Below are positions 9,083 to 43,208 of a stretch of 64,000 bases of DNA, piece after piece. Source of the DNA: a virus; the IMG/VR virus record IMGVR_UViG_3300030329_006606, positions 1 through 64,000 of that record, one strand, 5' to 3'. The notes under the pieces were generated by a model, which saw only the letters and a program-made list of their open reading frames with translations, ran no database searches and was not told where the DNA came from. Within the stretch, counting starts at the first letter, position 1, and each line of letters begins with the position of its first letter. A program made the position numbers and the translations under genes.

Positions 9083-9169
9083 TGGTAGGGAAGGAGGGAC
9101 TCGAACCCTCATGAGCTAACGCTCGACAGATTTTAAGTCTGTTGTGTATACCAATTCCACCACTTCCCC
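9083..9169 (-). tRNA. tRNA-Leu (anticodon TAA)
   Basis: A cloverleaf of 87 nt folds on the minus strand. It has an anticodon loop CTTAAAA, a long variable arm typical of class II tRNA, the T arm GGGTTCGAGTCCC and an encoded CCA. The acceptor stem begins with a G1:U72 wobble. Confidence 0.93.
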
Positions 9170-9171
9170 GA

Positions 9172-9247
9172 TGGTAGGCGATGCAGGGCTCGAACCTACG
9201 ACCTACTGGGTGTAAACCAGTTGCTCTTCCAACTGAGCTAATCGCCC
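9172..9247 (-). tRNA. tRNA-Val (anticodon TAC)
   Basis: A 76-nt cloverleaf on the minus strand with anticodon loop TTTACAC, D arm AGCTCAGTTGGAAGAGC, T arm AGGTTCGAGCCCT and encoded CCA. The first pair is G1:U72. Two bases separate it from tRNA-Leu. Confidence 0.93.
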
Positions 9248-9251
9248 AAAG

Positions 9252-9328
9252 TGGCAGGAAAGCTGGGACTCGAACCCAGAACCTACGGTTTAGAAGACCG
9301 TTGCTCTATCCAATTGAGCTACTTTCCC
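9252..9328 (-). tRNA. tRNA-Arg (anticodon TCT)
   Basis: A 77-nt cloverleaf on the minus strand with anticodon loop CTTCTAA (TCT, reading AGA), T arm GGGTTCGAGTCCC and encoded CCA. The first pair is G1:U72. It lies four bases after the stop of the SprT-like gene, so it is probably processed from that transcript. Confidence 0.93.
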
Positions 9329-28731: not shown

Positions 28732-29158
28732 GGGAGCGTACTGGATTCGATTTAGAACCTTACGCCAGATTGCAAGCAGAGGATAATGGTTGGCCTCTTA
28801 AAACATCCATTAAAAAATCCAAATGCCAATGATACCATTGACATGGAGATGGCCCCTTCGCTAGCCGAAGCTGACGCGATCCTCGCTAAGTTCGGTTATG
28901 TTGAAGAGGAAACTCTCCAACTAGCAGCTTAAGTTCTGCTACGTCCTACTCTGGATGCTCGTTAAAGAGATAGGGCGACGACAGCGAGCAAAACACTGGT
29001 TGAGTCTGGTTGAGTCTCCAGTAGTTTAAAAAAAGATAGACCAAACCTTACGTGAAGTCGTCGGCCACGGACACGTATTGAATTAGGCCGACTAAGCTTG
29101 TAGTACATTTGAGCCGATGGCTTTAAAGACGCGGGTTCGACTCCCGCCGCTTCCACCA
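28732..29158 (+). ncRNA. ssrA: tmRNA (one-piece)
   Basis: The 427-nt RNA starts GGGAGCG, which pairs with CGCTTCC at 29147-29153. It contains CTGGATTCGA near the 5' end and ends with T arm GCGGGTTCGACTCCCGC and CCA, the tRNA-like domain. The resume codon is GCC at 28825. The tag frame runs to TAA at 28930-28932 and encodes 35 residues, beginning ANDTIDMEM and ending TLQLAA, with the C-terminal LAA degron recognised by ClpXP. Most tags are about 10-12 residues, so this one is unusually long. A tandem TGGTTGAGTC occurs in the pseudoknot part. Confidence 0.95.
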
Positions 29159-30154: not shown

Positions 30155-31639
30155 ATGGACTCAATTTATTCTATACAAGTAGAGAAGCATGTCTTAGGAG
30201 GGCTAATTAAAATTCCAAAATCCTTCGCGGACGTGGAGAAATACATCACGGAAAAAGACTTTGTCAATGAAGTTCATCAAACCGTTTTTCGTGTTCTCCG
30301 AGAAGTTATTTTAGAGAGAGGAACAGTAGACACGGTTATTCTTGCTGAGAAAATAAAAAATATAGGAATATCATTCAAGGATGACATTAATATTTACGAC
30401 TACCTTGAGGCTATTTCTTTCAGCCAGATAACCTACAAAGCAATTATAGAAGCATCTCAAGAATTAAAGAAACTTACTGTACGTAGAGAGCTTTACCATA
30501 AGTGCGACGAAATTAAAAAATTTATCAAAGAGAACGGTGAAGAACAAATTGATGCAATCGTGAGCGAGGTGGACTCCCTGTATGGAGAACAACTCAGAAC
30601 CTATGAGATAGAAGATGAGCCAATCAATATATTCGAAACTATGAGAGACAATGTAGAAGAAAGAGGAAACAACCCACAAGACGACATGGGGATTCAAACC
30701 CCATACCCAGAATTTAACAGATTATATGGTGGCCTTCGCCCCGGCAACCTCTACGCTATAGTAGCTAGACCGGGGCAAGGCAAAACAACTTGGTTAAATG
30801 ACATCTGCTTTAAGACAGCAAAGATGAATAAAATACCCGTTCTCATCTTGGATACAGAGATGAGTTCAATGGATATTCAATCCAGAATAGCCTCGGCACT
30901 CACAGGGGTTCCGCCTTGGTACATAGAAACAGGAAACTGGCGCAAAAATCCAGAGCTTATAGATAAAGTGAGAGAAGGACTGAAAAGCGTTCGCAATGAG
31001 AACCTCCATCACTTTTTCGTTGGTAATAAAAATATAGATCAAATTTGTTCTCTGGTAAGGCGCTGGCACTTGACTCACGTGGGCCGCGGAAACCCATTCG
31101 TGCTTGGTTATGACTATGTTAAGCTTACCGGAGAGAAAGTTGGCAACAACTGGGGAGAACACCAAGCTATCGGTGACAAAATTGACAAGCTCAAGAAACT
31201 GTCAGAAGAGTTACAATGCCCCCTAATCACAGCAATGCAACTAAATAGGTCCGGCGAAAACTTTAACCGCCGCGCGCAAGGTGTGGTGGATGATAGCTCT
31301 GCCATATCTTTGTCAGATAGACTTCAGTGGTTTGCATCATTTGTTGCAATTTTTCGCCGAAAAGTTGTGGAAGAAATCGCTGAGGATGGAGAGCAATTCG
31401 GAACCCATAAGCTCATACCGCTTAAGACTAGGTTCCAAGGTAAAGACGCGGCCGGTCATCATGATATTGTCAGAAGGTTAGGTCAAGACGGAGAAGAACG
31501 TTGGGTGAATAATTATTTAAATTTTAATTGTGAAAACTTTAATGTTCGAGAAATGGGCTCCCTAAGGGATGTAGACGCTAGAGCAAGAGAGCAATATCTA
31601 GTAGAAGGAGAAAATCCACATGACGGAGACGTAATATAA
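30155..31639 (+). CDS. DnaB-like replicative helicase
   Basis: The 494-aa protein has the DnaB N-terminal helical domain (SIYSIQVEKHVLGGLIK). The RecA-like motor follows: GLRPGNLYAIVARPGQGKTT with Walker A at about residue 205, LILDTEMSSMDIQSRIAS, Walker B near FVLGYDYVKL, and CPLITAMQLNR as motif H3 with DDSSAISLSDRL after it. It unwinds DNA 5' to 3' at the fork and recruits primase. The primase gene follows after one base. Confidence 0.92.
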   Translation: MDSIYSIQVEKHVLGGLIKIPKSFADVEKYITEKDFVNEVHQTVFRVLREVILERGTVDTVILAEKIKNIGISFKDDINIYDYLEAISFSQITYKAIIEASQELKKLTVRRELYHKCDEIKKFIKENGEEQIDAIVSEVDSLYGEQLRTYEIEDEPINIFETMRDNVEERGNNPQDDMGIQTPYPEFNRLYGGLRPGNLYAIVARPGQGKTTWLNDICFKTAKMNKIPVLILDTEMSSMDIQSRIASALTGVPPWYIETGNWRKNPELIDKVREGLKSVRNENLHHFFVGNKNIDQICSLVRRWHLTHVGRGNPFVLGYDYVKLTGEKVGNNWGEHQAIGDKIDKLKKLSEELQCPLITAMQLNRSGENFNRRAQGVVDDSSAISLSDRLQWFASFVAIFRRKVVEEIAEDGEQFGTHKLIPLKTRFQGKDAAGHHDIVRRLGQDGEERWVNNYLNFNCENFNVREMGSLRDVDARAREQYLVEGENPHDGDVI

Positions 31640-31640
31640 A

Positions 31641-32552
31641 ATGGACTACAAAGAAATATTATTAGACATGGGGTATTCGAACATAATCGATAACGGTAGA
31701 GAGTTAAGAACTAAGCCGATCTACCGCGACTCAAGCAGCAATACGGTTCTAAGCATCAGGAAAGACACCGGCCACTTCATTGATTTCAGCAAGCAAATCA
31801 GTGGATCATTCTTAGAACTGGTTAAGATTTCCCAAGGGTTTAAGGATTACAAAGAAGCTCAAAACTATTTAGAAGATAAAGGCAGCGTCACAAGAAAAGT
31901 TATCCGTAAGCCTGAGGTGAAATCCCCAAAAGTTTTTCCCTCGGAATACTTATCAAAACTCCTACCAGATCATAGCTACTGGATTGACAGGGGTATAGAA
32001 AAATCAGTGTTAGAGGAATTCGGCGGCGGCCTTTGTAAGACGGGGAGTATGGAGGGCCGCTACGTATTCCCTATTTTAACCTCCAAGAATGAATTGATAG
32101 GAGTCTCCGGAAGAGACGTGGAAAACAGGGAATCTAAACCAAAGTGGAAACATAAAGGTACTAAAGCTTTCTGGAAATACCCATTACAAATTAATTATAA
32201 GATTCTTAAAGAAAAGAAAGAAATCATACTTATCGAGAGTATCGGTGACGGTCTATCCCTCTGGCAAGCTGGCGTTAAGAATTTTATAGTCACATTCGGT
32301 TTAGATTTAAATACTAATTTAGTTAATTTATTTTTAAAATTAGACCCCAAGAAAATATATATCTCATTCAATAATGATTCAAATAATAATAATGCAGGTA
32401 ATTTAGCAGCAGAAAAAGCAAAGAAAAAATTATGTAAATATTTTGATCATAATCAAATCTCTATTAAATTACCTACAAAGAAAGATTTTGGAGAAATGAG
32501 TATGAAGGAGATAAAAGAATGGCAAATTAATACTTGCCAATCTGTAAAATAA
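31641..32552 (+). CDS. DNA primase (TOPRIM, DnaG-like) without zinc finger cysteines
   Basis: The 303-aa protein has a compact N-terminal domain matching the CHC2 fold in outline (PIYRDSSSNTVLSIRKDTGH) but with no cysteine in the first 135 residues. The catalytic part follows: RYVFPILTSKNELIGVSGRD, then TOPRIM motifs IILIESIGDGLSLWQAG (Glu) and KIYISFNNDSNNNNAGNLAA, where Asp of the canonical DxD is partly replaced. It should synthesise primers with DnaB. Loss of the zinc motif parallels some other small phage primases. Confidence 0.83.
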   Translation: MDYKEILLDMGYSNIIDNGRELRTKPIYRDSSSNTVLSIRKDTGHFIDFSKQISGSFLELVKISQGFKDYKEAQNYLEDKGSVTRKVIRKPEVKSPKVFPSEYLSKLLPDHSYWIDRGIEKSVLEEFGGGLCKTGSMEGRYVFPILTSKNELIGVSGRDVENRESKPKWKHKGTKAFWKYPLQINYKILKEKKEIILIESIGDGLSLWQAGVKNFIVTFGLDLNTNLVNLFLKLDPKKIYISFNNDSNNNNAGNLAAEKAKKKLCKYFDHNQISIKLPTKKDFGEMSMKEIKEWQINTCQSVK

Positions 32553-32561
32553 TAATATAAT
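32534..32561 (+). promoter_or_regulatory. Promoter for 32571 operon (lysine cassette)
   Basis: TTGCCA (32534-32539), 16-bp spacer and perfect TATAAT (32556-32561), nine bases before ATG 32571. The -35 box is the right arm of a TGGCAA/TTGCCA inverted repeat (32520-32539), a possible operator. Confidence 0.7.
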
Positions 32562-32570
32562 ATTACTAAC

Positions 32571-32735
32571 ATGGCACTCAAAATACAAAAACAAGAACGT
32601 AAAACTGTAGATAAAAAAACTAGACAGGGCTGTAGCAACAACAGCAAAGGTATGAAGAAGTACAGAGGGCAAGGCGGACCAAGAAAAAGATGCCGCCAGT
32701 CTTGTAAGCCCGGAAGACGGGGGGCTAAAAAATGA
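32571..32735 (+). CDS. Small basic Cys-containing protein (54 aa)
   Basis: The frame reads MALKIQKQERKTVDKKTRQG, continues with KYRGQGGPRKRCRQSCKPGR and ends GAKK. About a third of its residues are Lys or Arg and three Cys are present, so nucleic-acid binding is likely. Its TGA overlaps the next ATG. It is first behind the promoter at 32534, ahead of the VOC, aldehyde dehydrogenase and lysine dehydrogenase genes. Confidence 0.68.
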   Translation: MALKIQKQERKTVDKKTRQGCSNNSKGMKKYRGQGGPRKRCRQSCKPGRRGAKK

Positions 32736-33286
32736 GGCTAGATCATGTAGCTTACAGAGTTGAGAATAGGTATAGATCCGCTGGATTTTTTACCGAAGCT
32801 TTTGGTTATAAGCTTGGCACAGAATTTCAAATCGAATTTGATGATGGGTCCAAGGCGGACTGTCTAGCTCTTACGCCACCTGAAATAAGGCACCCAGACA
32901 CAATGCTCTGGACTCATCACGCTTTACACCCCGCACCCTACGAGACGATCAACGCAGAATACCATGCCCCACCCGAGATTTTCGTTAGTGATGGCAGCAA
33001 GGGGTCCATCGTGGGCGACTGGGTGGCAGAAAGAGGCGGAGTAGGGGGTATCCATCACATGGCATACCAAGTTGAGGACGTAGCGGCAATCATGAAAGAA
33101 TGGAAAGAAAAAGGGTACGCGGAGTTCTACTCTGAAGAACCTATAACCTGCAAAGATCCGGACTTAACACAGGTCTTCACCAAACCATCAGAACTTACAG
33201 GAGTAATATATGAATTCATTAACAGAGAAGGCGCTGGATTTTGCAAAGACAGCGTTAAGGAACTTATGCAAAGCACTAAGGAATAA
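32732..33286 (+). CDS. VOC-family dioxygenase-like protein (184 aa)
   Basis: Two VOC modules are visible, MRLDHVAYRVENRYRSAGFF and, from about residue 110, GIHHMAYQVEDVAAIMKEW. The end reads LTQVFTKPSELTGVIYEFIN, then REGAGF, close to the C-terminal iron-binding domain of 4-hydroxyphenylpyruvate dioxygenase (QIFTKP...EIIxR). His in LDHV and HHM and Glu in YEFI could hold a metal. The protein is half the length of HPPD. It precedes the lysine-oxidation genes and may act on a related intermediate, but the reaction is unknown. Confidence 0.75.
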   Translation: MRLDHVAYRVENRYRSAGFFTEAFGYKLGTEFQIEFDDGSKADCLALTPPEIRHPDTMLWTHHALHPAPYETINAEYHAPPEIFVSDGSKGSIVGDWVAERGGVGGIHHMAYQVEDVAAIMKEWKEKGYAEFYSEEPITCKDPDLTQVFTKPSELTGVIYEFINREGAGFCKDSVKELMQSTKE

Positions 33287-33287
33287 T

Positions 33288-34823
33288 ATGAGAGACTTTG
33301 AAGGCAGAAACTACATTAATGGCAAGTGGCAAGCTACTGATGAGATGTATACTAAAATCAACCCTGCCACTGGCAAAGCGCAAGGCGCTTTCCCCTTGAG
33401 TGGACCGATAGAAGTAGAGACAGCTATTGAATCCGCTCGCTCAACTTTTAAAAAATGGAGAAAAGTTAGTAGGTTTGTACGCTCAGACTACATGAACAAA
33501 GTTGCTCAGTTAATTGAGGAAAGGAAAGATTTACTAGCTACAGCGATATCCCTAGAAACAGGTAAAAACTACAACGAAAGCGTGGCTGAAGTCAACGAAG
33601 CACTACACATGGCCCAATTTGCTTTTGGATCAGGAAGATACCCCCACGGCGAAGCGGTATCATCAGAAATACAAGACAAAGATTCTTACATGCTAAGAAA
33701 ACCTAAAGGGGTGATAGCTATCATAACTCCGTTTAATTTTCCCCTCGCAATAGGTATGTTTTGGAATGCTGCTCCAGCGTTAGTAGAAGGAAACACTATA
33801 GTAATCAAACCAAGCGAGGATGCGCCAATGTCAACTCAACTAGCTGTTCAAATCTATGAGGACGCAGGTATCCCAGCCGGTGTTATTAATTTGGTTCACG
33901 GAAAAGGTCACACTGGTGATCTTTTAGCTCGTGGCGAAGTGGATCACATTTGTTTCACTGGTTCCGCTGACGTTGGTCAACACATTCGTAAAGTCGCAGC
34001 CGAGTCTTGGCATAAAACAACCTCTTGTGAACTGGGGAGCAAATCAGCCTGTATTGTCTTTGATGACGTAGAAATTCCTTTAGCTCTAGAAGCCTCAATC
34101 GCTAGTGCGTTTAAATTATCAGGACAAAGATGTGTTTCTTCTGGACGAATCCTAGTACAAAGAACTATCTGCGATGATTTTGCTCGGAGGTTCGCCGATA
34201 AAGCTAGCAAATTAAAGACAGGTAACCCTTTTAAAAAGATCGTAAAGTCAACAGGTATGCCAGAAGCTGTTGCGTGGGATGAACTAGTCCCCGACGAAGA
34301 GATTTATTACGGACCAATCATAAACGAGCAAGGCTACGCAAAAATAAGAGCTTACAATAAAATGGTCAATGATGATAGTCAAGCCGAAGTATTACTTTCC
34401 CCCACTTATACCGGAGAACACGGGGCCTATTACTCAACTCCTATGGTTTATAAAACGGAGTGGCGCGGCCACGATGCACAATACCTACGAAACGAAGTAT
34501 TTGGCCCTCACGTAGCCATAATCCCATTTGATACAATGGAAGACGCGATTCGCATTTATAACGATACCGAATATGGTCTCGCAGTCGGAATCCTAACTAA
34601 TGATTTCAGAAAAGCGCGCGTTATGAGGGACGAGTGTGAGGCTGGTATGATTTACTGGAACGGTGGATCTATAGCAGCCGAGTCACATCTTGCATTTGGT
34701 GGAGTTAAGAAATCAGGAAACGGATTCCCAAGCGCAGCCAGAACTTTTAGAGCCGTAACTCATGAAATTAGCTGGACAGTTAACCACGCAAATGAGCTAA
34801 CGTTTCCTCAAGGAATGAAATGA
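33288..34823 (+). CDS. NAD(P)-dependent aldehyde dehydrogenase, probably aminoadipate-semialdehyde type
   Basis: The 511-aa enzyme shows all ALDH motifs: Asn150 in TPFNFPLA, Lys174 in IVIKPSE, FTGSADVG, the general base Glu248 in CELGSKS and the nucleophile Cys282 in GQRCVSS. The C-terminal motif is EVFGPHVAIIPF. ALDHs oxidise aldehydes to acids. The next gene, overlapping by ATGA, resembles lysine 6-dehydrogenase, whose product is allysine. Oxidation of allysine to 2-aminoadipate is therefore the likely job, by inference. I start at ATG 33288, two bases after the VOC stop. Confidence 0.9.
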   Translation: MRDFEGRNYINGKWQATDEMYTKINPATGKAQGAFPLSGPIEVETAIESARSTFKKWRKVSRFVRSDYMNKVAQLIEERKDLLATAISLETGKNYNESVAEVNEALHMAQFAFGSGRYPHGEAVSSEIQDKDSYMLRKPKGVIAIITPFNFPLAIGMFWNAAPALVEGNTIVIKPSEDAPMSTQLAVQIYEDAGIPAGVINLVHGKGHTGDLLARGEVDHICFTGSADVGQHIRKVAAESWHKTTSCELGSKSACIVFDDVEIPLALEASIASAFKLSGQRCVSSGRILVQRTICDDFARRFADKASKLKTGNPFKKIVKSTGMPEAVAWDELVPDEEIYYGPIINEQGYAKIRAYNKMVNDDSQAEVLLSPTYTGEHGAYYSTPMVYKTEWRGHDAQYLRNEVFGPHVAIIPFDTMEDAIRIYNDTEYGLAVGILTNDFRKARVMRDECEAGMIYWNGGSIAAESHLAFGGVKKSGNGFPSAARTFRAVTHEISWTVNHANELTFPQGMK

Positions 34824-36019
34824 TGACAGAGCATATACAACCAGACGAAAGAAAGACTGCTGCTGTTCTTGGAGTAGGCAGAATGGGAACAGTAATTTCA
34901 TACGCGATGAAAGAGCTTGGTTTTTTTGTTGTCGGCGTAGACAACAACGAATCTGCTGCCGTAAACTTTCGAAAACGAATGTCAGCAAACGATGGCACAT
35001 TCTACAGAGTAACTGAATCTGGAACCCTAGATGAAAATGCCATTGCAGCAGGAGTACCCCCAAAAGATTTCAGATATGTTCTCTCTCACGAGAAGCCAGA
35101 TATTGTAATAAGCAGTTTACCCTACCACCAAACCGAAGAAGTCGCTGCGTGGTGTATAGAAAACTCTTTAAGATATTGCGATCTAGGAGGAAGAGTGGAT
35201 GTATCAGAAAGAATCAATAAACTTGCCAATGAAAAAGCTAAGGCTCCCGTAATGACAGATTTAGGGCTTGCCCCGGGTTGGGTCAATATCTTAGCAGAAC
35301 ATGCTTGTAAGGAGATTCACGGCACCCCTGATGAAGTCTTAATGATGGTCGGAGGAATCCCGGGGACACCGAACAATCCCCCGCTTAATTATGCGTGTAC
35401 TTGGTCAACAGACGGGCTGCTTAACGAATACGCAGATGACTGTGAAATACTCTCTGATGGAGAAATAAAAAAAGTAAAAGGCATGGACGGCTTAATTGAC
35501 GTAGAATTCAATAAACTAAAGTTTACAAACTCCTCCCGAAAAATAGAAGCATTCTATACGAGCGGCGGTGCGTCACACACCATTAAAGATATGAAAGAAA
35601 GGGGTGTAAAAAATTGCGCTTATAGAACCATGCGTTGGAAAGGTCATGGAGATATTATAAAACTTTTAATTAGACAATGTGATTTGAGCAGAAAATGCTT
35701 AGAAAAAATATTTGAAAAAGGTTGCCCACACACAGAGGGTGACCCAGACCTAGTCCTCATTAAAGTAAAAGTTACATGCGGTAAACTAGTATGGTCTGAT
35801 GAAATAATTATAGGATATGATTCAGAATTTTCAGCTATGCAAAAGTCCACAGCCTTCTCTATCTCTGCTGTAGCATCTCAAATGGCTGAAGGGATGTATG
35901 ATGGTAAGCTAGATCAACATAGAGATTATTGGACAGAATACCCAAAAGCGTTATCATATAAACATATAAATTACAAAGACTTCAGCGATAGATTAAACAA
36001 GCTAGGAATTCAATTATAA
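34820..36019 (+). CDS. Lysine 6-dehydrogenase / saccharopine dehydrogenase family
   Basis: The 399-aa protein has the Rossmann motif VLGVGRMGTVI and then DLGGRVDVSE, DLGLAPGWVNILAEHACKEI, VGGIPGTPNNPPLNYACTWS and GLLNEYADDCEILSDGE. FYTSGGASHTIKDM and YRTMRWKGHGDI follow. This order and wording match bacterial L-lysine 6-dehydrogenase (about 385 aa), which deaminates L-lysine to allysine with NAD+ and releases ammonium. Saccharopine reductase is the alternative, but that family lacks the LDxG...TSGGxS combination as placed here. Coupled to the aldehyde dehydrogenase, it completes a two-step lysine to 2-aminoadipate route. Confidence 0.82.
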   Translation: MMTEHIQPDERKTAAVLGVGRMGTVISYAMKELGFFVVGVDNNESAAVNFRKRMSANDGTFYRVTESGTLDENAIAAGVPPKDFRYVLSHEKPDIVISSLPYHQTEEVAAWCIENSLRYCDLGGRVDVSERINKLANEKAKAPVMTDLGLAPGWVNILAEHACKEIHGTPDEVLMMVGGIPGTPNNPPLNYACTWSTDGLLNEYADDCEILSDGEIKKVKGMDGLIDVEFNKLKFTNSSRKIEAFYTSGGASHTIKDMKERGVKNCAYRTMRWKGHGDIIKLLIRQCDLSRKCLEKIFEKGCPHTEGDPDLVLIKVKVTCGKLVWSDEIIIGYDSEFSAMQKSTAFSISAVASQMAEGMYDGKLDQHRDYWTEYPKALSYKHINYKDFSDRLNKLGIQL

Positions 36020-36288
36020 TGAACGACATCAAGTTAAACGCCGATATGATTAACTGGTTAGATAAAAATAAATCTGACTATCAAAACATTGCTATCGATA
36101 ACCAAACCTTCCCCTCTGATGCGGTCACAAGGATGAACCAAATAAGCAAATCCCCACACTCAATGGCCGAGCGGCGCCTCTTACTTAAGGCGTTCTGCGA
36201 ACAATTTAATATGCTCCCTTACAGCGAGGGAGTACCAGTAGCAATCAAGATGATTGACCAGTGGCAACATATTAAAAAATATAAATAA
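36019..36288 (+). CDS. Hypothetical protein (89 aa)
   Basis: A helical soluble protein, MNDIKLNADMINWLDKNKSD, with AERRLLLKAFCEQFNMLPYS near the end. Its ATG shares a base with the lysine dehydrogenase stop and its stop is one base before the nuclease start, so it is operon-internal. I do not recognise it. Confidence 0.7.
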   Translation: MNDIKLNADMINWLDKNKSDYQNIAIDNQTFPSDAVTRMNQISKSPHSMAERRLLLKAFCEQFNMLPYSEGVPVAIKMIDQWQHIKKYK

Positions 36289-36289
36289 T

Positions 36290-37243
36290 ATGCCTGAAAA
36301 TAAAGTACTATCCGCTTCAAGGATTAAAACCTTAGAAGACTGCGCGTGGAAATACTGGTGCAATTACCACCTAAAAGTCCCACAGAAAGGTAATGACGGC
36401 GCAAGCAGAGGAACAGTTTGCCACAGAATCTTTGAGCTTCTGTTGCTTAAAAAAAATAAAAAATATTTCGACGTAATCATAGACCAAAAATCCACAACCG
36501 CAAGTCCGGCTGTGTGCAGGTTAACAAGAATGCTCCTAAAACAAGAAGGTCAAGACGCAGAGTTTTACAACGAAGAAAACTACCAATTATGTCTAGACAT
36601 GATATATGTCGGGCTTAATTTTGATTTCTTCGGAAAAGGCGGAGAACCAGATAAACCGGAAATAAAATTTGTTATAGAAAAAGAAAACCCAGAATACAAG
36701 GTAATGGGCTTCATGGATAAAGTTCTAAAGTTTGATGATAAAATAAAAATAGTAGACTATAAATCAAGCAAGCGCAAATTCTCCAAAGAAGATTTAAAAG
36801 CAAACATGCAAGCCATGGTTTATACTTTAGCAAGCAAAGAGCTATGGCCCAAGAACCTCACGACCCTAGTTGAGTTCGTATTTCTAAAGTTCCCAAAGCA
36901 ACCACTCCAACAGGTGGAAGTGTCAGACGACCAACTCAAAGGATTTGAGCATTACCTAGCCCATATGTACAAAGTTATCAACAACTTTACCGAGGAAATG
37001 GCGAAACAAAACTACGCAAAAGATAAGTACGCAACCAAGTTCTTTTGTCGGTCAGACAAATCGGGGTGGAAATGCCCCTACCTAGAGAAGTTTGATTATT
37101 ATATTCTTCTTAGTGAAGAAGGTAAAATTCTTAAGTCTGCCTTTAAAAAGAAAGACTTGACAGCCTCGGATGGTCAAAAAATAGAGAAAAAAACATACGA
37201 AGGATGCCCCGCTCACACCGCTGACGACCCTTTCGACATTTAG
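36290..37243 (+). CDS. RecB/Cas4-type PD-(D/E)XK exonuclease
   Basis: From ATG 36290 the protein is 317 aa. SASRIKTLEDCAWKYWCNYH is the PDDEXK_1 opening (with GTVCHRIFE), and GFMDKVLKFDDKIKIVDYKS gives the catalytic D...DYK, with Gln in NMQAMVY as motif III. Cysteines before (CAWKYWC) and after (FFCRSDKSGWKCPY) the core could hold a 4Fe-4S cluster as in Cas4 and AddB. It probably processes DNA ends for recombination. No Cas1 or CRISPR array is present. Confidence 0.83.
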   Translation: MPENKVLSASRIKTLEDCAWKYWCNYHLKVPQKGNDGASRGTVCHRIFELLLLKKNKKYFDVIIDQKSTTASPAVCRLTRMLLKQEGQDAEFYNEENYQLCLDMIYVGLNFDFFGKGGEPDKPEIKFVIEKENPEYKVMGFMDKVLKFDDKIKIVDYKSSKRKFSKEDLKANMQAMVYTLASKELWPKNLTTLVEFVFLKFPKQPLQQVEVSDDQLKGFEHYLAHMYKVINNFTEEMAKQNYAKDKYATKFFCRSDKSGWKCPYLEKFDYYILLSEEGKILKSAFKKKDLTASDGQKIEKKTYEGCPAHTADDPFDI

Positions 37244-37246
37244 CTC

Positions 37247-37274
37247 TTGACATTTTTGAAAAATGTCGTACCAT
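37247..37274 (+). promoter_or_regulatory. Leaderless promoter for the polymerase III operon
   Basis: CTTGACA (TTGACA 37247-37252), 16-bp spacer, TACCAT (37269-37274), then six bases to ATG 37281. A frame opening at 37263 merely translates the -10 region. Confidence 0.78.
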
Positions 37275-37280
37275 TATAGT

Positions 37281-38048
37281 ATGGATAAAGATAATGTGAT
37301 TCCAATCTTTAAATCTCACTACAGCCTAGGTAAATCCATCCTCACGCTAGAGCCTCCGACAGAAGATAAAACGTACCCTAGGTCTTGTTTGTCCATATGT
37401 AAAGACTACGGGATTTCCAAATTTATACTGGTAGATGATAACATGAGCGGGTTCCTTCAAGCTTATGAATCCTCAAAAGAACTAGGGGTTCAATTGATTT
37501 TTGGTGTGAGAATAACTGTATGCGCAGACATGGAAGAGAAGAATCAGGAGTCGTTAAAGACAAACAATAAAGTAGTAATCTTCGCAAAAAACTCAGAAGG
37601 ATACAAGAAATTAATTAAAATTTACACTCTTGCCGCAAGAAAGGGATTCTACTATGAACCGAGAATAGACAGTGCTAATCTAAAGAAACTATGGGATAAT
37701 AATTTAAAATTATGTATTCCCTTTTATGATTCTTTTATACATGCTAATTTAATCAAAAACAGTCTTTGTGTACCGGAATTTGATTTTACTGAATTAACTT
37801 TCTTTTCAGAAGAAAATGAACTACCTTTTAACTCAATAATCCAAAGTGGCATTGAGAAGTTCGTTGGGGCAAAAAAAGATATAATTAAAGTTAAAAGTAT
37901 ATACTACGAAAAGAAGGAGGACTTTAAAGCCTACCTTACATTTAAATGTATCAACAACAGAACCACACTTGACAAACCAAACTTAGACCACATGACCAGT
38001 AACGAGTTCTGTATTGAAAGCTGGAAGGAAGAAAATGGTACCGTTTAG
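37281..38048 (+). CDS. DNA polymerase III alpha, separate PHP domain
   Basis: The 255-aa protein resembles only the N-terminal PHP domain of DnaE: FKSHYSLGKSILTLE, then CKDYGISKFILVDDNMSGFL, LGVQLIFGVRITVCADM, VVIFAKNSEGYKKLIKIYTL and RKGFYYEPRID. The canonical HxH of active PHP domains is degenerate (FKSH), so it is probably structural, as in E. coli. The catalytic core is a separate gene at 40662-43208. Summed length (255 + 848 aa) equals one ordinary DnaE. Three genes lie between: cupin, proofreading exonuclease and carbamoyltransferase. Confidence 0.8.
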   Translation: MDKDNVIPIFKSHYSLGKSILTLEPPTEDKTYPRSCLSICKDYGISKFILVDDNMSGFLQAYESSKELGVQLIFGVRITVCADMEEKNQESLKTNNKVVIFAKNSEGYKKLIKIYTLAARKGFYYEPRIDSANLKKLWDNNLKLCIPFYDSFIHANLIKNSLCVPEFDFTELTFFSEENELPFNSIIQSGIEKFVGAKKDIIKVKSIYYEKKEDFKAYLTFKCINNRTTLDKPNLDHMTSNEFCIESWKEENGTV

Positions 38049-38397
38049 AGTTAAAAAGGTAGAGAAAACTTGGGGCCACGAACTGTGGCTTGCCAATAAC
38101 GAAACAGAAAATTACTGCGCCAAAATCCTCTTCATCAAAAAGAATAAGAGCACATCAATGCATTACCACGTCAAAAAGCATGAAACAATGCACGTCTTAA
38201 AAGGAACCTTAATGGTAGAAGGACTAGGAGACAGGCATAACTTCGGGCATAAATTTGCAATGATGGCTAAAGAAGGTGAATCTCTAGAAATAGAAAGGGG
38301 CCGAGCCCATAAACTGGTAGCCCACCACGAAGATTTAACTATCATAGAAGCGAGCACATTCCACAGAGATAAAGACAGCTATAGACTACATAAATAA
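38035..38397 (+). CDS. Cupin, mannose-6-phosphate isomerase-like (120 aa)
   Basis: The start at 38035 has AAGGAAG upstream and reads MVPFRVKKVEKTWGHELWLA. KSTSMHYHVKKHETMHVLKG is the first cupin motif with three metal-binding His/Glu, and ERGRAHKLVAHHEDLTIIEAS the second. The WGHE start is typical of type II mannose-6-phosphate isomerase domains. It could supply mannose-6-phosphate for GDP-mannose and Gmd, but small cupins have many roles. It overlaps the PHP gene by 14 bases. Confidence 0.78.
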   Translation: MVPFRVKKVEKTWGHELWLANNETENYCAKILFIKKNKSTSMHYHVKKHETMHVLKGTLMVEGLGDRHNFGHKFAMMAKEGESLEIERGRAHKLVAHHEDLTIIEASTFHRDKDSYRLHK

Positions 38398-38398
38398 C

Positions 38399-39037
38399 AT
38401 GGACGACCATTTACTTAGATTCGACAAAGAAAAAGTTTACTGTTTCATAGATTTTGAAACGGAAAACCTGTGCCTTAATAATTCCCACAATCTACCTTGG
38501 CAAGTAGCAATGATAAAAGCGGTTGACGGTAAAAAGATAGACGAAAAAAATTTTTACGTCAAATGGCCCCGACAAGTTAATGTAAGTAAGGAAGCCGCTA
38601 GAATAACTAGATTCAACTTAAAGAAATACGAAGAAATCGCCGTACCACACGATCAGATTTTCCCCACCGTTGAAGACTGGTTGGACAATTCTGATTATGT
38701 TTTAGGGCATAATATTTTAGGGTTTGATTTATATCTTATAAAAGATTTCTATAAGGAAATGGGTAAGGATTACAAACATTTGGTCGAAAAAATGATTGAT
38801 ACTATGTGTGTAGCTCGTGGTATAAAATACGACGAACGAATCAAAGACGATGAAAATTTCTTAGCATGGCAATACAAAATGTTACACACCCACAGAAAGG
38901 GTGTAAAAACCAACCTAACAGCCCTAGGTAAAGAATTTGACATACAACACAATTACGAAAAGCTTCACAATGCTATTGTAGATTTAGAATTAAACCTTAA
39001 AGTTTGGAATAAATTAAAATGGATGATTGATGTATAG
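38399..39037 (+). CDS. DnaQ-like 3'-5' exonuclease (proofreading)
   Basis: The 212-aa protein has the DEDDh motifs: Exo I FIDFETENL (about residue 17), Exo II GHNILGFD (about residue 103) and Exo III LHNAIVDLELN (about residue 190, HxAxxD). It is the size of an epsilon subunit and lies inside the polymerase III operon, so it is the likely proofreader of the split polymerase. RNase T-like trimming is the alternative. Confidence 0.87.
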   Translation: MDDHLLRFDKEKVYCFIDFETENLCLNNSHNLPWQVAMIKAVDGKKIDEKNFYVKWPRQVNVSKEAARITRFNLKKYEEIAVPHDQIFPTVEDWLDNSDYVLGHNILGFDLYLIKDFYKEMGKDYKHLVEKMIDTMCVARGIKYDERIKDDENFLAWQYKMLHTHRKGVKTNLTALGKEFDIQHNYEKLHNAIVDLELNLKVWNKLKWMIDV

Positions 39038-39045
39038 TGTTAGGT

Positions 39046-40665
39046 ATGAATATTCTTGGTATAACCCACCCCATAAGCTTTAATAGTAGTGCTTGCATAA
39101 TCAGAAGCGACGAACTTATTGCTATAGGAGAAGAGGAAAGGTTTAACAGAGTTAAACACGCCCCTAGAATTTTCCCAGAACAATCTGTAAAATTCTGCCT
39201 GAAAAAAGCGAATTTATCACCCGAAGATATTCATATTGTTGCCGTAGGGTTTGGGGATAAAAATTTCTGCGGAGGACCCGGCAGCAAAGAAATGATCAAG
39301 AGAAACTGGGATAAATGTTTGTTTGGTTTGGCTAAGTTAGGGATAGACTCTTGTAAAACTCGTTTTTTCTCCCACCACTTATGTCATATGATGTCTACCT
39401 TTGCTGCGGGAGGACATAAAAACTGGTCAAATATAATGTCTATCGATGGAGCGGGAGATGATTGCTCTGGGTTCATGGCTAATTCCGAGGGGCTTTTTCG
39501 TGACCTAAAAAGTTCTGTTAACTGCTCTGCTAACACCAGATTTCCTAGCTATATAATCCCTTGTGGAGCCTCTTGGGGGCTGCTATGGGAGGATGTCACC
39601 GAGCTTCTTGGTTTTAAAAGACACTCAGGCGAAGGAAAGACAATGGGGCTCGCCTCTTACGGCCAAGAAGATATGAGGTTATTACCACCTCTATTCTCAG
39701 AGAACTACCCAAACACAGAAAGCTTTAGAAATTTTTTCAAAAGCAATGGGTGGATAAATACCCGCGTAGACCCTTTGTCTGATACAGGCAAAAACCTAGC
39801 GCACACCCTGCAACAATATTATAATGAAAAACTAATTTATTATGCCAGAAGGCTGTACGAGAACACGAACTGCAAAAAGTTTTCCCTAGCAGGAGGGTGT
39901 GCGTTAAATTGTACAGCTAATGGAGAACTAGCCAAGCAAGATTTTGTTAAAGAATTATATATCCAACCCTTAAGTCACGACGCTGGAACTTCCGTTGGCG
40001 CAGCGATCATAGCATACTGGGCCGAAAACAACAAGCTTCCTAAGGCAAGAATGCCTCACGCCTACTGGGGCGCAGAATACTCCCACGAAGAAATACTTAG
40101 CGAATTAAATAAACAAAATATTCCCTTTAAAGAACAAGACCCAGCCAAAGCTGCCGCGGAATTGCTCGCGGATAATAAAGTTGTATGCTTTTTTCAAGGT
40201 CGAGCCGAAGTCGGACCGAGAGCTTTAGGAAACAGGAGTATCCTAGCAAACCCAATCTTTAAAGATAACCTAGATAAAGTTAACAAGATCAAAGGAAGAG
40301 AAAGCTGGAGACCTCTTGCGCCCAGCATTTTAGAAGAAAGTTATTTTGACGTAGTTGATGCAAAATTTTTATCCCCTTTTATGCTTATGGCTGCGCCTGT
40401 AAAAGAATATTATATAGAAAAAATTCCAGCAGTAGTTCATGTAGACAACTCGTGCAGACCCCAATCTGTAAACAAAAACACAAATAAAATTTTTCACAAA
40501 ACAATTCTTGAATTTAAAAAAAGAACTGGTATACCTGTAGTATTGAATACAAGTTATAATTTAAGCCACGAACCCATAGTTAATTCACCAAGGGATGCCA
40601 TCAAGACCTTCTTAAGTTCTGATGCAGACGCCTTAGTTATTGGTGATTTTGTTGTAGAAAAATGA
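39046..40665 (+). CDS. Carbamoyltransferase (NodU/CmcH family)
   Basis: The 539-aa protein starts MNILGITHPISFNSSACIIR, with EEERFNRVKHAPRIFP. The metal and carbamoyl-adenylate site is seen in FSHHLCHMMSTF and SIDGAGDD, then SLAGGCALNCTANG. The C-terminal half has GRAEVGPRALGNRSILA and WRPLAPSILEE, all family hallmarks. It transfers a carbamoyl group from carbamoyl phosphate via carbamoyl-AMP to a hydroxyl. The acceptor may be a sugar, or a hydroxymethylated base in phage DNA as reported for some phage homologues. No base hydroxymethylase is visible here. I use ATG 39046; a GTG at 39037 is the alternative. Confidence 0.88.
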   Translation: MNILGITHPISFNSSACIIRSDELIAIGEEERFNRVKHAPRIFPEQSVKFCLKKANLSPEDIHIVAVGFGDKNFCGGPGSKEMIKRNWDKCLFGLAKLGIDSCKTRFFSHHLCHMMSTFAAGGHKNWSNIMSIDGAGDDCSGFMANSEGLFRDLKSSVNCSANTRFPSYIIPCGASWGLLWEDVTELLGFKRHSGEGKTMGLASYGQEDMRLLPPLFSENYPNTESFRNFFKSNGWINTRVDPLSDTGKNLAHTLQQYYNEKLIYYARRLYENTNCKKFSLAGGCALNCTANGELAKQDFVKELYIQPLSHDAGTSVGAAIIAYWAENNKLPKARMPHAYWGAEYSHEEILSELNKQNIPFKEQDPAKAAAELLADNKVVCFFQGRAEVGPRALGNRSILANPIFKDNLDKVNKIKGRESWRPLAPSILEESYFDVVDAKFLSPFMLMAAPVKEYYIEKIPAVVHVDNSCRPQSVNKNTNKIFHKTILEFKKRTGIPVVLNTSYNLSHEPIVNSPRDAIKTFLSSDADALVIGDFVVEK

Positions 40666-43208
40666 ATTTTATGAGCACATTTGAAAAGCTAGAACTCGAT
40701 CTTCATGGAGTAAGATTGCCGTCTTTCTCTATTGAAAATAAATACAAACGCAACCTCAAAGTTAGCGAAGACATCTCCAACGAAGAATTTTTAGACGCGC
40801 TTTGCCAAGCGGGACTTGATAAAGTAACAGCCAACTTAAACGCAAAGAACGCCAAAGCCTACGAAGCTAGACTTAAAAGAGAGCTCGACACCGTAAAGGA
40901 ACTAGGATTCGTCGATTATTTATTGCTAGTTTGGGACGTGATCAACTTTTGCAACGAAAGTAAAATTCCTACCGGCGTTGGTCGCGGAAGCGCCGCTGGC
41001 AGTTTGATTTTGTTTTTGATTGGGGTAACAAAAGTCGACCCTCTTAAATATAATTTATTCTTCGAAAGATTTATCTCTAAGATTAGAGCTAAGAAAAAAG
41101 TAGTAGATGATATAACTTATCTTGACGGATCATTAATGATGGATGTAGATTTAGACATATGCTACTACAACCGCCAAAAAGTTTTAGAATATTTAGAGAA
41201 TAAATTCGAAGGAAAGACTTCTAAAATCCTTACTCTTAACACTCTAAGCACTAAACTGCTCATAAAAGAATGTGGAAAAGTAATTTCTAATAAAAGCGAA
41301 CAAGAAATGAACAAAGTTTCTGCGCTGATACCCAAGGTCTTTGGGCAAATCAAAAGCCTAGAAGAAGCTTACGCAGAGAAAGAAGAGTTTAAAGGGTGGT
41401 GCGACCAGAACAAAGAAATATATGATATAGCCCTAAAACTCAGGGGCTTAAACAAGAATAAAGGAGTTCATCCGTCAGCGGTTTCACTATCCTTCGATAA
41501 AATGGAGGACTCCTGCCCCACAGAATTAACCTCCGATAAGAAGGGGTTCGTTTCCTCTTATGACATGAATTGGGTTTCTATTTTTAATGTTAAATTAGAT
41601 ATTCTTGGGCTTAGAGCCGTGTCGGTTGTCGATGATGTATGTAAAAACGTTGGCATAGAACTTTCTGATATTGACCTTACGGACCCAGCCATATATCAAA
41701 ACTTACAAGACTTACGTACGCCTCATGGCCTGTTCCAAATCGAAGCGGAAACCAATTATAGAGTCTGCCAAAAAGTTAAACCCAAAAACCTAGAAGAACT
41801 TTCCGCCGTTCTCGCGCTTGCTAGACCGGGAGCCTTGCAGTTTGTAGATCAGTACGCCGCTTACGTAAATGAAGATGAGTACGAACCGATCCACCCTTTC
41901 TTCGATGATATATTATCCTCTACGGGGGGCGTTGCTCTTTACCAAGAGCAGTTAATGCAAATGGCGAATAAGGTTGGGTTCACACTCGACGAAGCCGAAA
42001 TTCTCCGCAGAATCGTAGGTAAGAAAAAGATTTCCGAGGTTAAAAAATGGAAAGCTAAAATTAAAAATAAAATTAAAGAGAAAAAACTAGACCCTAATAT
42101 AGCGGATATTCTTTGGAGCATTTTAGAGGACTCTGCTAATTATTCTTTTAATAAATCTCACTCCATATCCTATGGCGCACTGTGTGCAATCACCACTCAC
42201 TTAAAATTTAAGTATCCCCAACAATTTTTCTTAAGCTTACTTCGAATGACTCGCCACGAGCCAGATCCAATTAGTGAGATATCCAAAATTCAAAAAGAAA
42301 TGGATTACTTCGGCACGAAATTGTTACCGCCACATATTGTGAAATCCAAAATGGACTTCGAGATTGAAGGCGAAGATATAAGATTTGGTTTGCTTTCTAT
42401 TAAAGGCATTAGCGATAAAAGTATAGAAAAACTTAGCGATTTCCGCAGCGAATACTCCAACAAATTCGAAGTATTCGAAGGAGCAAAAGAATGCGGACTA
42501 ACCATAGGAGCACTCTCAGCATTAATCCAAGCCGGTACCTTCCAAGGCTTCAAACAATCTCGCAGTAAGATTGTTTATGAAGCTCAACTTTGGAACGTGC
42601 TAACACAGAAGGAGAAAAAAATCGCCATGGAAGTGGCCTCAAAACATGAGTTTGATTTGGTTGAAGTAATTAAAGACTTAGCTTCAAAAAAGGACGAAAA
42701 AGGTAAACCGTTTATTAAAGAGTCGAGAATGCAAACGATCAAAAGAAAATCAGAACCTTATAAGAAAATATATTTTAAGAATAAAGTCTCTGAATCTTTT
42801 GCCAACTGGTATTATGAAAAGAACTTGCTTGGCTACACATACAACAAGGACTTGCGCGACATATTCTCAGACAAAAGAGAAGACTTAATGAGCCTCAGAG
42901 ATATTGAAGGACTACCCACGGACTCAAGGGTTGTTTTTATTGGTACGGTTAGCGAAAAGCCATTTTTTGGTTCATCAAAGAACGGGAATAATTATATGAA
43001 ATTATTCGTCGAGGACGAGACCGCAGCCCTGAAGACCATGATATTCAACAAGAAGCTAGAAACATGCAAAAGCATGAACGACGGTTTCCCAAAAGAAAAA
43101 AGCATCGTCATCGTCAAGGGTACAACCAAAGACGAAGTGCTGTTCGCAGACAGCATCTCCGTACAAAGCAATAAAATTTACACCAAGCTATCAGAACTAA
43201 AAGAGTAA
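40662..43208 (+). CDS. DNA polymerase III alpha catalytic core
   Basis: The 848-aa protein has the C-family palm: RELDTVKELGFVDYLLLVWD, GVGRGSAAGSL (residues 105-115) and MMDVDLDI with Asp161/163/165. RTPHGLFQIEAETNYRV and LARPGALQF, LYQEQLMQMANKVGFTLDEA, KSHSISYGALCAITTHLKFK and a late OB fold (RVVFIGTVSEKPFFGSSKNG) follow. It lacks the PHP domain, which is encoded at 37281. It is the replicative polymerase of the phage and replaces the family A or B enzymes usual in phages. Its ATG overlaps the carbamoyltransferase stop. Confidence 0.92.
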   Translation: MNFMSTFEKLELDLHGVRLPSFSIENKYKRNLKVSEDISNEEFLDALCQAGLDKVTANLNAKNAKAYEARLKRELDTVKELGFVDYLLLVWDVINFCNESKIPTGVGRGSAAGSLILFLIGVTKVDPLKYNLFFERFISKIRAKKKVVDDITYLDGSLMMDVDLDICYYNRQKVLEYLENKFEGKTSKILTLNTLSTKLLIKECGKVISNKSEQEMNKVSALIPKVFGQIKSLEEAYAEKEEFKGWCDQNKEIYDIALKLRGLNKNKGVHPSAVSLSFDKMEDSCPTELTSDKKGFVSSYDMNWVSIFNVKLDILGLRAVSVVDDVCKNVGIELSDIDLTDPAIYQNLQDLRTPHGLFQIEAETNYRVCQKVKPKNLEELSAVLALARPGALQFVDQYAAYVNEDEYEPIHPFFDDILSSTGGVALYQEQLMQMANKVGFTLDEAEILRRIVGKKKISEVKKWKAKIKNKIKEKKLDPNIADILWSILEDSANYSFNKSHSISYGALCAITTHLKFKYPQQFFLSLLRMTRHEPDPISEISKIQKEMDYFGTKLLPPHIVKSKMDFEIEGEDIRFGLLSIKGISDKSIEKLSDFRSEYSNKFEVFEGAKECGLTIGALSALIQAGTFQGFKQSRSKIVYEAQLWNVLTQKEKKIAMEVASKHEFDLVEVIKDLASKKDEKGKPFIKESRMQTIKRKSEPYKKIYFKNKVSESFANWYYEKNLLGYTYNKDLRDIFSDKREDLMSLRDIEGLPTDSRVVFIGTVSEKPFFGSSKNGNNYMKLFVEDETAALKTMIFNKKLETCKSMNDGFPKEKSIVIVKGTTKDEVLFADSISVQSNKIYTKLSELKE

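Follow-up and report, generated by a model that had tools for sequence, protein, structure and literature searches.

The virus record IMGVR_UViG_3300030329_006606 of IMG/VR, from a marine phage, is 88,816 bases long, and its bases 1 to 64,000 (hereafter the window) contain a cassette of three plus-strand genes, set within a block of replication genes, for which we propose a role in the oxidation of lysine. The genes encode a VOC-fold protein of 184 residues (32732-33286), an aldehyde dehydrogenase (ALDH) of 511 residues counted from its ATG (33288-34823; PF00171, 1.4e-121) and a 399-residue oxidoreductase resembling L-lysine 6-dehydrogenase (LysDH; 34820-36019; PF16653, 3.5e-21, and PF03435, 3.3e-5). 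A first-pass annotation had described them as a tightly coupled cassette, and this description holds: all open reading frames (ORFs) are intact, the VOC and ALDH genes are 1 nt apart, and an ATGA overlap joins the ALDH and LysDH-like genes. Its further claim that the genes lie under one promoter is not demonstrated, because so AT-rich a region yields many promoter-like matches; a candidate, TTGCCA-16-TATAAT, lies at 32534-32561, but the cassette region has 44 such matches, compared with 26 ± 5 in shuffles.

Recurrence of the cassette in viruses

Alignment searches of IMG/VR retrieved 55 VOC loci and 74 ALDH loci, mostly on the same contigs. LysDH-like genes were located beside these loci, and a search with a 19-row alignment gave 160 viral LysDH relatives; a single LysDH sequence had retrieved none from the viral contigs, its back-translated patterns being too specific. 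Among annotated phage records, close relatives of the VOC protein and the ALDH were found only in the huge phages LR756511 and LR756504 (VOC only in the latter), and two different LysDH-like queries gave no match. Sixty-four ALDH contigs, dereplicated at 95% identity, included 48 with at least 4 kb on both sides and 44 with at least 8 kb downstream of the ALDH gene. In 36 of the 48, a VOC gene lies within 4 kb of the ALDH gene (within 100 nt in 34), and 43 have, within 4 kb, a gene for either LysDH or L-lysine 6-transaminase (LAT). Among the 44 contigs, LysDH is encoded in 33, LAT in 14, both in 4 and neither in 1, a mutual avoidance with a Fisher p of 4e-6 when contigs are treated as independent (kinship not corrected). 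The pattern supports LysDH and LAT as two unrelated, interchangeable predicted routes to allysine that rarely occur together.

The cassette is under purifying selection, with ratios of nonsynonymous to synonymous substitution (dN/dS) in close pairs of 0.08-0.12 for LysDH, 0.09 for ALDH and 0.06-0.08 for VOC. Because its relatives are linked in dozens of marine viral contigs and these ratios span 0.06-0.12, its recurrence goes beyond chance. It is a real, conserved and widespread viral metabolic module, not special to the source phage, and constitutes a phage auxiliary metabolic module: it lies in a viral genome, surrounded by genes for phage replication, encodes homologues of cellular-type metabolic enzymes and is maintained by selection.

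The class-III transaminase of the LAT-type viruses (one representative) scores 477.2 bits against TIGR03251, the L-lysine 6-transaminase model, versus 214 for the next family; the score is below the curated cutoff of 520.8, yet far above all other families. In the Protein Data Bank (PDB) it matches 2cin, the LAT of Mycobacterium tuberculosis, at 1e-111 (next enzyme, 2e-46). The viral enzymes belong to the same family and would yield the same product, allysine, whereas they are about 30 residues shorter; the window itself has no LAT gene. Directly between the ALDH and LAT genes lies an arginine dihydrolase-like gene (NF052232, 233 bits; Sll1336, 6jv0, 4e-56). In the huge phage LR756511 (595 kb), relatives of VOC (58%), ALDH (48%) and LAT (56%) lie at three separate loci, at 195, 320 and 504 kb, and there is no LysDH match; the same functional set thus co-occurs there without linkage.

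Two side observations concern the LAT-type viruses and their arginine dihydrolase-like gene. The ALDH gene is accompanied both by this gene and by a truncated UDP-glucose dehydrogenase-like gene of about 280 residues (L113:3848-5053, L119:11838-12638, L128:6537-7385), and the marine viral arginine dihydrolase-like protein shares 34% identity with an arginine dihydrolase/DDAH-like protein of the cultured Xanthomonas phage phiXF1 (PP475461.1, 37868-38662).

A tree of 126 sequences places each of its 75 viral LysDHs on the same side of a single fully supported branch, which argues for an old viral family rather than a recent host pick-up, although the cellular rows were picked by similarity and deeper cellular relatives could be missing. 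The viral group has the motif TDLGLAPG, whereas the homologues from bacterial operons have PQCGLAPG. More diverged LysDH-like genes of other viruses, without a nearby ALDH (L263, L268, L271, L272, L275, L280 and L288), have neighbours that, by inspection, resemble dUTPase, thymidylate synthase, GMP reductase and FBPase/GlpX.

Some matches were set aside. Many "phage" ALDH matches were discounted since the records resemble bacterial chromosome contigs with many ALDH paralogues; they include CAKLQH/CAKLQF (Acinetobacter phage MD-2021a), OR84xxxx (Listeria/Staphylococcus) and AGRM/AFYI (Salmonella). Such bacterial contigs labelled as phage would inflate claims of phage ALDHs. We also rejected SAR202 as an assigned host: the matches in the SAR202 metagenome-assembled genome (MAG) OSU_TB57 of GTDB (L132, L323), which include a cassette-type ALDH-LysDH pair and a VOC gene, are viral contigs that were placed in the MAG by binning; L132, for one, is almost identical to the viral contigs L108/L123. 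These contigs are either a binning artefact or a host hint, and nothing stronger than a hint.

Structure, active-site residues and cellular operons

The AlphaFold2 (AF2) model of the LysDH-like protein (mean predicted local distance difference test, pLDDT, 86; predicted template modelling score, pTM, 0.88) has as its best PDB match 3abi, the L-lysine 6-dehydrogenase PH1688 of Pyrococcus horikoshii (E 3e-22; target-normalised template modelling score, TM, 0.83-0.86), whereas the TM is about 0.62 with saccharopine dehydrogenases and about 0.70 with carboxyspermidine dehydrogenases. A profile built from 19 viral LysDHs also ranks 3abi first, at 142 bits, ahead of saccharopine dehydrogenases (75) and carboxyspermidine dehydrogenase (23). 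The protein resembles PH1688 in length and in its combination of an N-terminal Rossmann domain with a Sacchrp_dh_C domain, and its GxGxxG motif with Asp41 suggests a cofactor of the NAD type. Viral and bacterial sequences have in common the columns Y191, TWS194-196, NEY202-204, E243, TSGG247-250, R272, G275/H276, Q341 and T344. With a fold nearest to the characterised LysDH and active-site columns common to operon-linked bacterial homologues, the protein is placed in the LysDH-like family, and we infer L-lysine 6-dehydrogenase activity (EC 1.4.1.18) from sequence and model.

These bacterial LysDH relatives, 30-33% identical to the viral enzyme and with pocket residues in common, adjoin ALDH genes. 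Three of the adjacent ALDHs score above the piperidine-6-carboxylate dehydrogenase cutoff of 730: those of Nitrospira (L177, 761.5), Chitinophaga (L186, 833.9) and a deltaproteobacterial MAG (L136, 730.2). The Chitinophaga locus also encodes a PF07063 protein, HGLS (2-oxoadipate dioxygenase/decarboxylase), and the arrangement of LysDH, piperidine-6-carboxylate dehydrogenase and HGLS is a known lysine route. In Nitrospirota, a VOC homologue 31-32% identical to that of the window adjoins the ALDH gene on the same strand in 29 of the 30 loci examined, and LysDH, ALDH and VOC genes are contiguous in 9 of 12 extended loci. A Nitrospirota VOC protein used as query against ten genomes retrieved only its orthologues and one viral VOC protein at E<=1e-6.

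The catalytic residues Glu248 and Cys282 of the ALDH, reported as intact by the first-pass annotation, are indeed present and are invariant in all 67 phage relatives. Other positions were mapped with the ALDH7A1 numbering Glu268/Cys302. By spacing, the phage residues Glu101 and Arg281 are then the equivalents of ALDH7A1 Glu121 and Arg301, and both are likewise invariant (67/67). In ALDH7A1, Glu121 and Arg301 form ion pairs with bound aminoadipate (PMC11362210). The equivalent of Thr303 is Val283 in the phage enzyme and is not conserved, so that substrate binding would differ in detail from that of ALDH7A1. As a control, 23 ALDHs from four bacterial genomes were aligned; the combination of E101, E104 and R281 occurred in 4 of them, all with EVQE...GQRC (piperidine-6-carboxylate/ALDH7 type by motif), and two of these four are the LysDH-adjacent ALDHs of L186 and L207. 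The phage enzyme thus shares with ALDH7 or L-piperidine-6-carboxylate dehydrogenase (AmaB/antiquitin; NF050084) the predicted reaction and the Glu121/Arg301 equivalents, and in cells ALDH7 enzymes adjoin the same LysDH family, but the phage ALDH lies outside ALDH7. The nearest cellular ALDH seen, an L191-type Nitrospira enzyme, is likewise outside it. Hence we do not file the phage protein as an ALDH7 member and put forward only a piperidine-6-carboxylate/aminoadipate-semialdehyde dehydrogenase activity, as a proposal from its residues.

The AF2 model of the VOC protein (pLDDT 86) matched methylmalonyl-CoA epimerases and hydroxymandelate synthase (HMS)/HPPD in Foldseek; the epimerases are equally close by E-value, whereas the query-normalised TM reaches 0.65 for HMS/HPPD versus 0.51-0.59 for the epimerases. 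TIGR01263 matches weakly. An alignment of 45 viral and Nitrospira sequences has the invariant positions H5, R9, H108, H109, Q147, E161, R165, G169 and F170, among which His5/His108/Glu161 form an HPPD/HMS-like triad. The phage protein also has a Q-[VI]-F-T-K-P motif like that of HPPD and a C-terminal G-F helix motif; its QVFTKP, IYEFINR and GF resemble the HPPD C-terminal domain. HGLS is a VOC enzyme as well; its triad is His70/His226/Glu294, and one arginine, Arg74, sets its specificity (PMC7286885). Phage H5 and R9 have the spacing of HglS His70 and Arg74, but arginine at His+4 is also present in unrelated control VOC proteins (e.g., the GloA type), so this spacing is only suggestive and R9 is weakened as an HGLS-specific signature. 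The His-His-Glu triad, HxxxR spacing and analogous operon position of the phage protein are thus suggestive of HGLS, whereas it has only 184 residues and an HMS/HPPD-like fold rather than a recognisable HGLS one, with Pfam matches to PF13669/PF00903 only and none to PF07063. The first-pass annotation gave the VOC protein no role. Because cellular operons carry VOC genes with those for ALDH and LysDH, the strongest evidence here being genomic, we suggest that it belongs to the same pathway; a third step, in which it would act as an Fe(II) 2-oxoacid oxygenase converting 2-oxoadipate to 2-hydroxyglutarate, is a tentative candidate role.

Proposed pathway and alternative explanations

Since the fold match to LysDH, the bacterial operons, the substrate residues of the ALDH and the replacement of LysDH by LAT all support lysine as the substrate, the cassette is probably a phage-borne lysine-oxidising module. 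The LysDH-like protein would remove the epsilon-amino group from L-lysine by oxidation, with NAD(P)+ as acceptor; the products would be allysine, NAD(P)H and NH4+. The ALDH would then oxidise allysine, which is in equilibrium with piperideine-6-carboxylate, to 2-aminoadipate and form another NAD(P)H. The same conversion of lysine via allysine to 2-aminoadipate was put forward in the first-pass annotation; operons with curated ALDHs, together with the fold, residue and LAT evidence, support it, with lysine as a presumptive substrate. A host aminotransferase could then form 2-oxoadipate, which the VOC protein perhaps turns, with O2, into 2-hydroxyglutarate and CO2. Related viruses would use LAT for the first step, making glutamate, and their arginine dihydrolase-like enzyme would free two further NH4+. 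In the remaining 24.8 kb of the record, ORFs of at least 150 residues were inspected for an aminotransferase or hydroxyglutarate dehydrogenase (no family search was run) and only large structural-looking ORFs were seen.

The NH4+ or glutamate, NAD(P)H and C5 acids so formed would feed phage replication. Supply of nitrogen and reductant for nucleotide synthesis is a plausible purpose, and the ribonucleotide reductase large subunit encoded in the genome and the position in the replication block fit such a pay-off without proving it. Substrates, cofactors, the VOC reaction and the benefit to replication are all what we infer from homology and context. More broadly, marine phages, some huge phages and Nitrospirota might share a route from lysine to 2-hydroxyglutarate in which the third step falls to a new, miniature 2-oxoadipate oxygenase of the VOC fold, an Fe(II) enzyme different from HGLS; phages would use this route while replicating, to turn host lysine (in one lineage also arginine) into NH4+ or glutamate, NAD(P)H and C5 acids. 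We regard this wider scheme as possible but doubtful. Beyond the first-pass annotation, the analysis adds how widespread the module is, its variant with LAT, the operon in cells and, on weaker evidence, the possible VOC step.

Several observations weigh against a lysine-specific module. The phage ALDH scores 253.5 bits against the piperidine-6-carboxylate dehydrogenase model NF050084 (cutoff 730), is no nearer to this family than to several other ALDH families and falls below every NCBIfam equivalog cutoff, so that its substrate assignment relies on residues and context. The LysDH-like protein of the window is only about 20% identical to 3abi. Four contigs encode LAT as well as LysDH, and replacement is therefore not strict. 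Moreover, LysDH-like genes occur without an ALDH within 8 kb in many other viruses, and in many huge-phage loci the VOC gene has ClpX, PRPP synthetase-like and FolD-like genes as neighbours and neither ALDH nor LysDH close by; the partners may thus act alone or with host enzymes. Finally, the arginine dihydrolase of the LAT type keeps ornithine and glutamate semialdehyde possible as substrates. According to this alternative, delta-oxidation of ornithine obtained from arginine would give glutamate semialdehyde, a close homologue of allysine, and the ALDH would produce glutamate, making the cassette a part of arginine/ornithine catabolism; the gene between ALDH and transaminase would provide the ornithine from arginine, with release of two NH4+. 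We consider this unlikely, as the viral transaminase scores 477 bits as L-lysine 6-transaminase versus 154 as ornithine aminotransferase, the dehydrogenase has the fold of lysine dehydrogenase, the cellular operons use curated piperidine-6-carboxylate dehydrogenases (one together with HGLS), and the window and most LysDH-type contigs have no arginine dihydrolase.

Lysine dehydrogenase, polyamine enzymes (homospermidine synthase, carboxyspermidine dehydrogenase) and saccharopine reductase have one fold in common, and homospermidine synthase, a relative of the carboxyspermidine and lysine dehydrogenases, is indeed known from phages (PMC9992855). A function of the LysDH-like protein in one of these other families is nevertheless very unlikely: lysine dehydrogenase ranks first by profile and structure and carboxyspermidine dehydrogenase comes far behind, neither set of matches includes homospermidine synthase, no polyamine decarboxylase gene was recognised beside the cassette, and a partner ALDH would be unexpected in polyamine synthesis. 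The polyamine reading was set aside as the less likely one by profile and fold. It is also most improbable that the product of the cassette is a building block (allysine, 2-aminoadipate, pipecolate or a 2-oxoacid) with which the phage modifies its DNA, proteins or glycans. Glycosyltransferase-like, carbamoyltransferase and nucleotide-sugar genes elsewhere in the genome, and the UDP-glucose dehydrogenase-like gene beside LAT in some relatives, would suit such a purpose, whereas no amino-acid transfer enzyme was recognised in the cassette and the same set forms a chromosomal operon in Nitrospirota. Chance assembly of unrelated captures with separate functions (a detoxifying ALDH, a glyoxalase-like VOC protein and an orphan oxidoreductase) could account for the VOC and LysDH-like genes found singly in other viruses, but is scarcely credible given a LysDH or LAT gene in 43 of 44 ALDH contigs, the co-occurrence at three separate loci in LR756511 and the same trio in Nitrospirota.

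Lysine oxidation by the cassette would be new for phages as far as the literature searched is concerned. The first-pass annotation knew of no described phage pathway for lysine breakdown; we found none either (preprints and subscription papers were outside the search), and only category-level mentions of auxiliary metabolic genes (AMGs), which do not contradict it. Large Bay of Bengal phages have "lysine degradation" AMGs given as a category count only (PMC10732071); the pathway label is the same, whereas that paper describes neither a linked module or operon nor a series of reactions. In gut phages "lysine degradation" refers to other enzymes (PMC13205691), and, among related phage enzymes, only homospermidine synthase has a description there (PMC9992855). 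If the proposal is true, ocean viruses themselves break down an amino acid rich in nitrogen while they infect their hosts, a type of virocell metabolism absent from the papers searched, through a conserved and widespread module with two interchangeable entry enzymes. It offers a testable idea of how large marine phages could cover their need for nitrogen and reductant, and hints that Nitrospirota and phages may have a family of 2-oxoadipate oxygenases that has gone unrecognised.

Neighbouring genes and minor observations

On one side, the cassette is flanked by genes for a DnaB-type replicative helicase (30155-31639, plus strand; tblastn to phage DnaB helicases) and a Toprim primase (31641-32552, plus strand), and on the other by those for a PD-(D/E)XK nuclease (36290-37243, plus strand; PF12705, 7.5e-20), a PHP domain, a DnaQ-like exonuclease and a DNA polymerase. 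Two small plus-strand ORFs adjoin the cassette. The upstream one (32571-32735; 54 residues, Lys/Arg-rich) overlaps the VOC start by ATGA; no homologue of it was found, its status as a gene is uncertain, and in related viruses its slot is filled by a different ORF of 73-91 residues. The downstream one (36019-36288; 89 residues) overlaps the LysDH stop by TAATG, matches no known family, and none of the viral loci retrieved first contains a homologue of it. A HAD-like protein of 138 residues (cluster c3; L021:6782-7195 and 55 other viral loci) recurs near VOC-ALDH-LysDH; it has no Pfam or NCBIfam match and is absent from the window.

The PHP domain (37263-38048) and the DNA polymerase core (40662-43208) both match phrog_405 (DNA polymerase), at different positions, and are encoded by separate genes. 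Between them lie the gene for the DnaQ-like exonuclease, a cupin-like gene (38023-38397; phrog_7851, "cysteine dioxygenase") and a Nol-like carbamoyltransferase gene (39037-40665; phrog_1601). The phage also encodes a tmRNA, with the tag EADAILAKFGYVEEETLQLAA, and a cluster of Leu, Val and Arg tRNAs (window positions 28732-29158 and 9083-9328).

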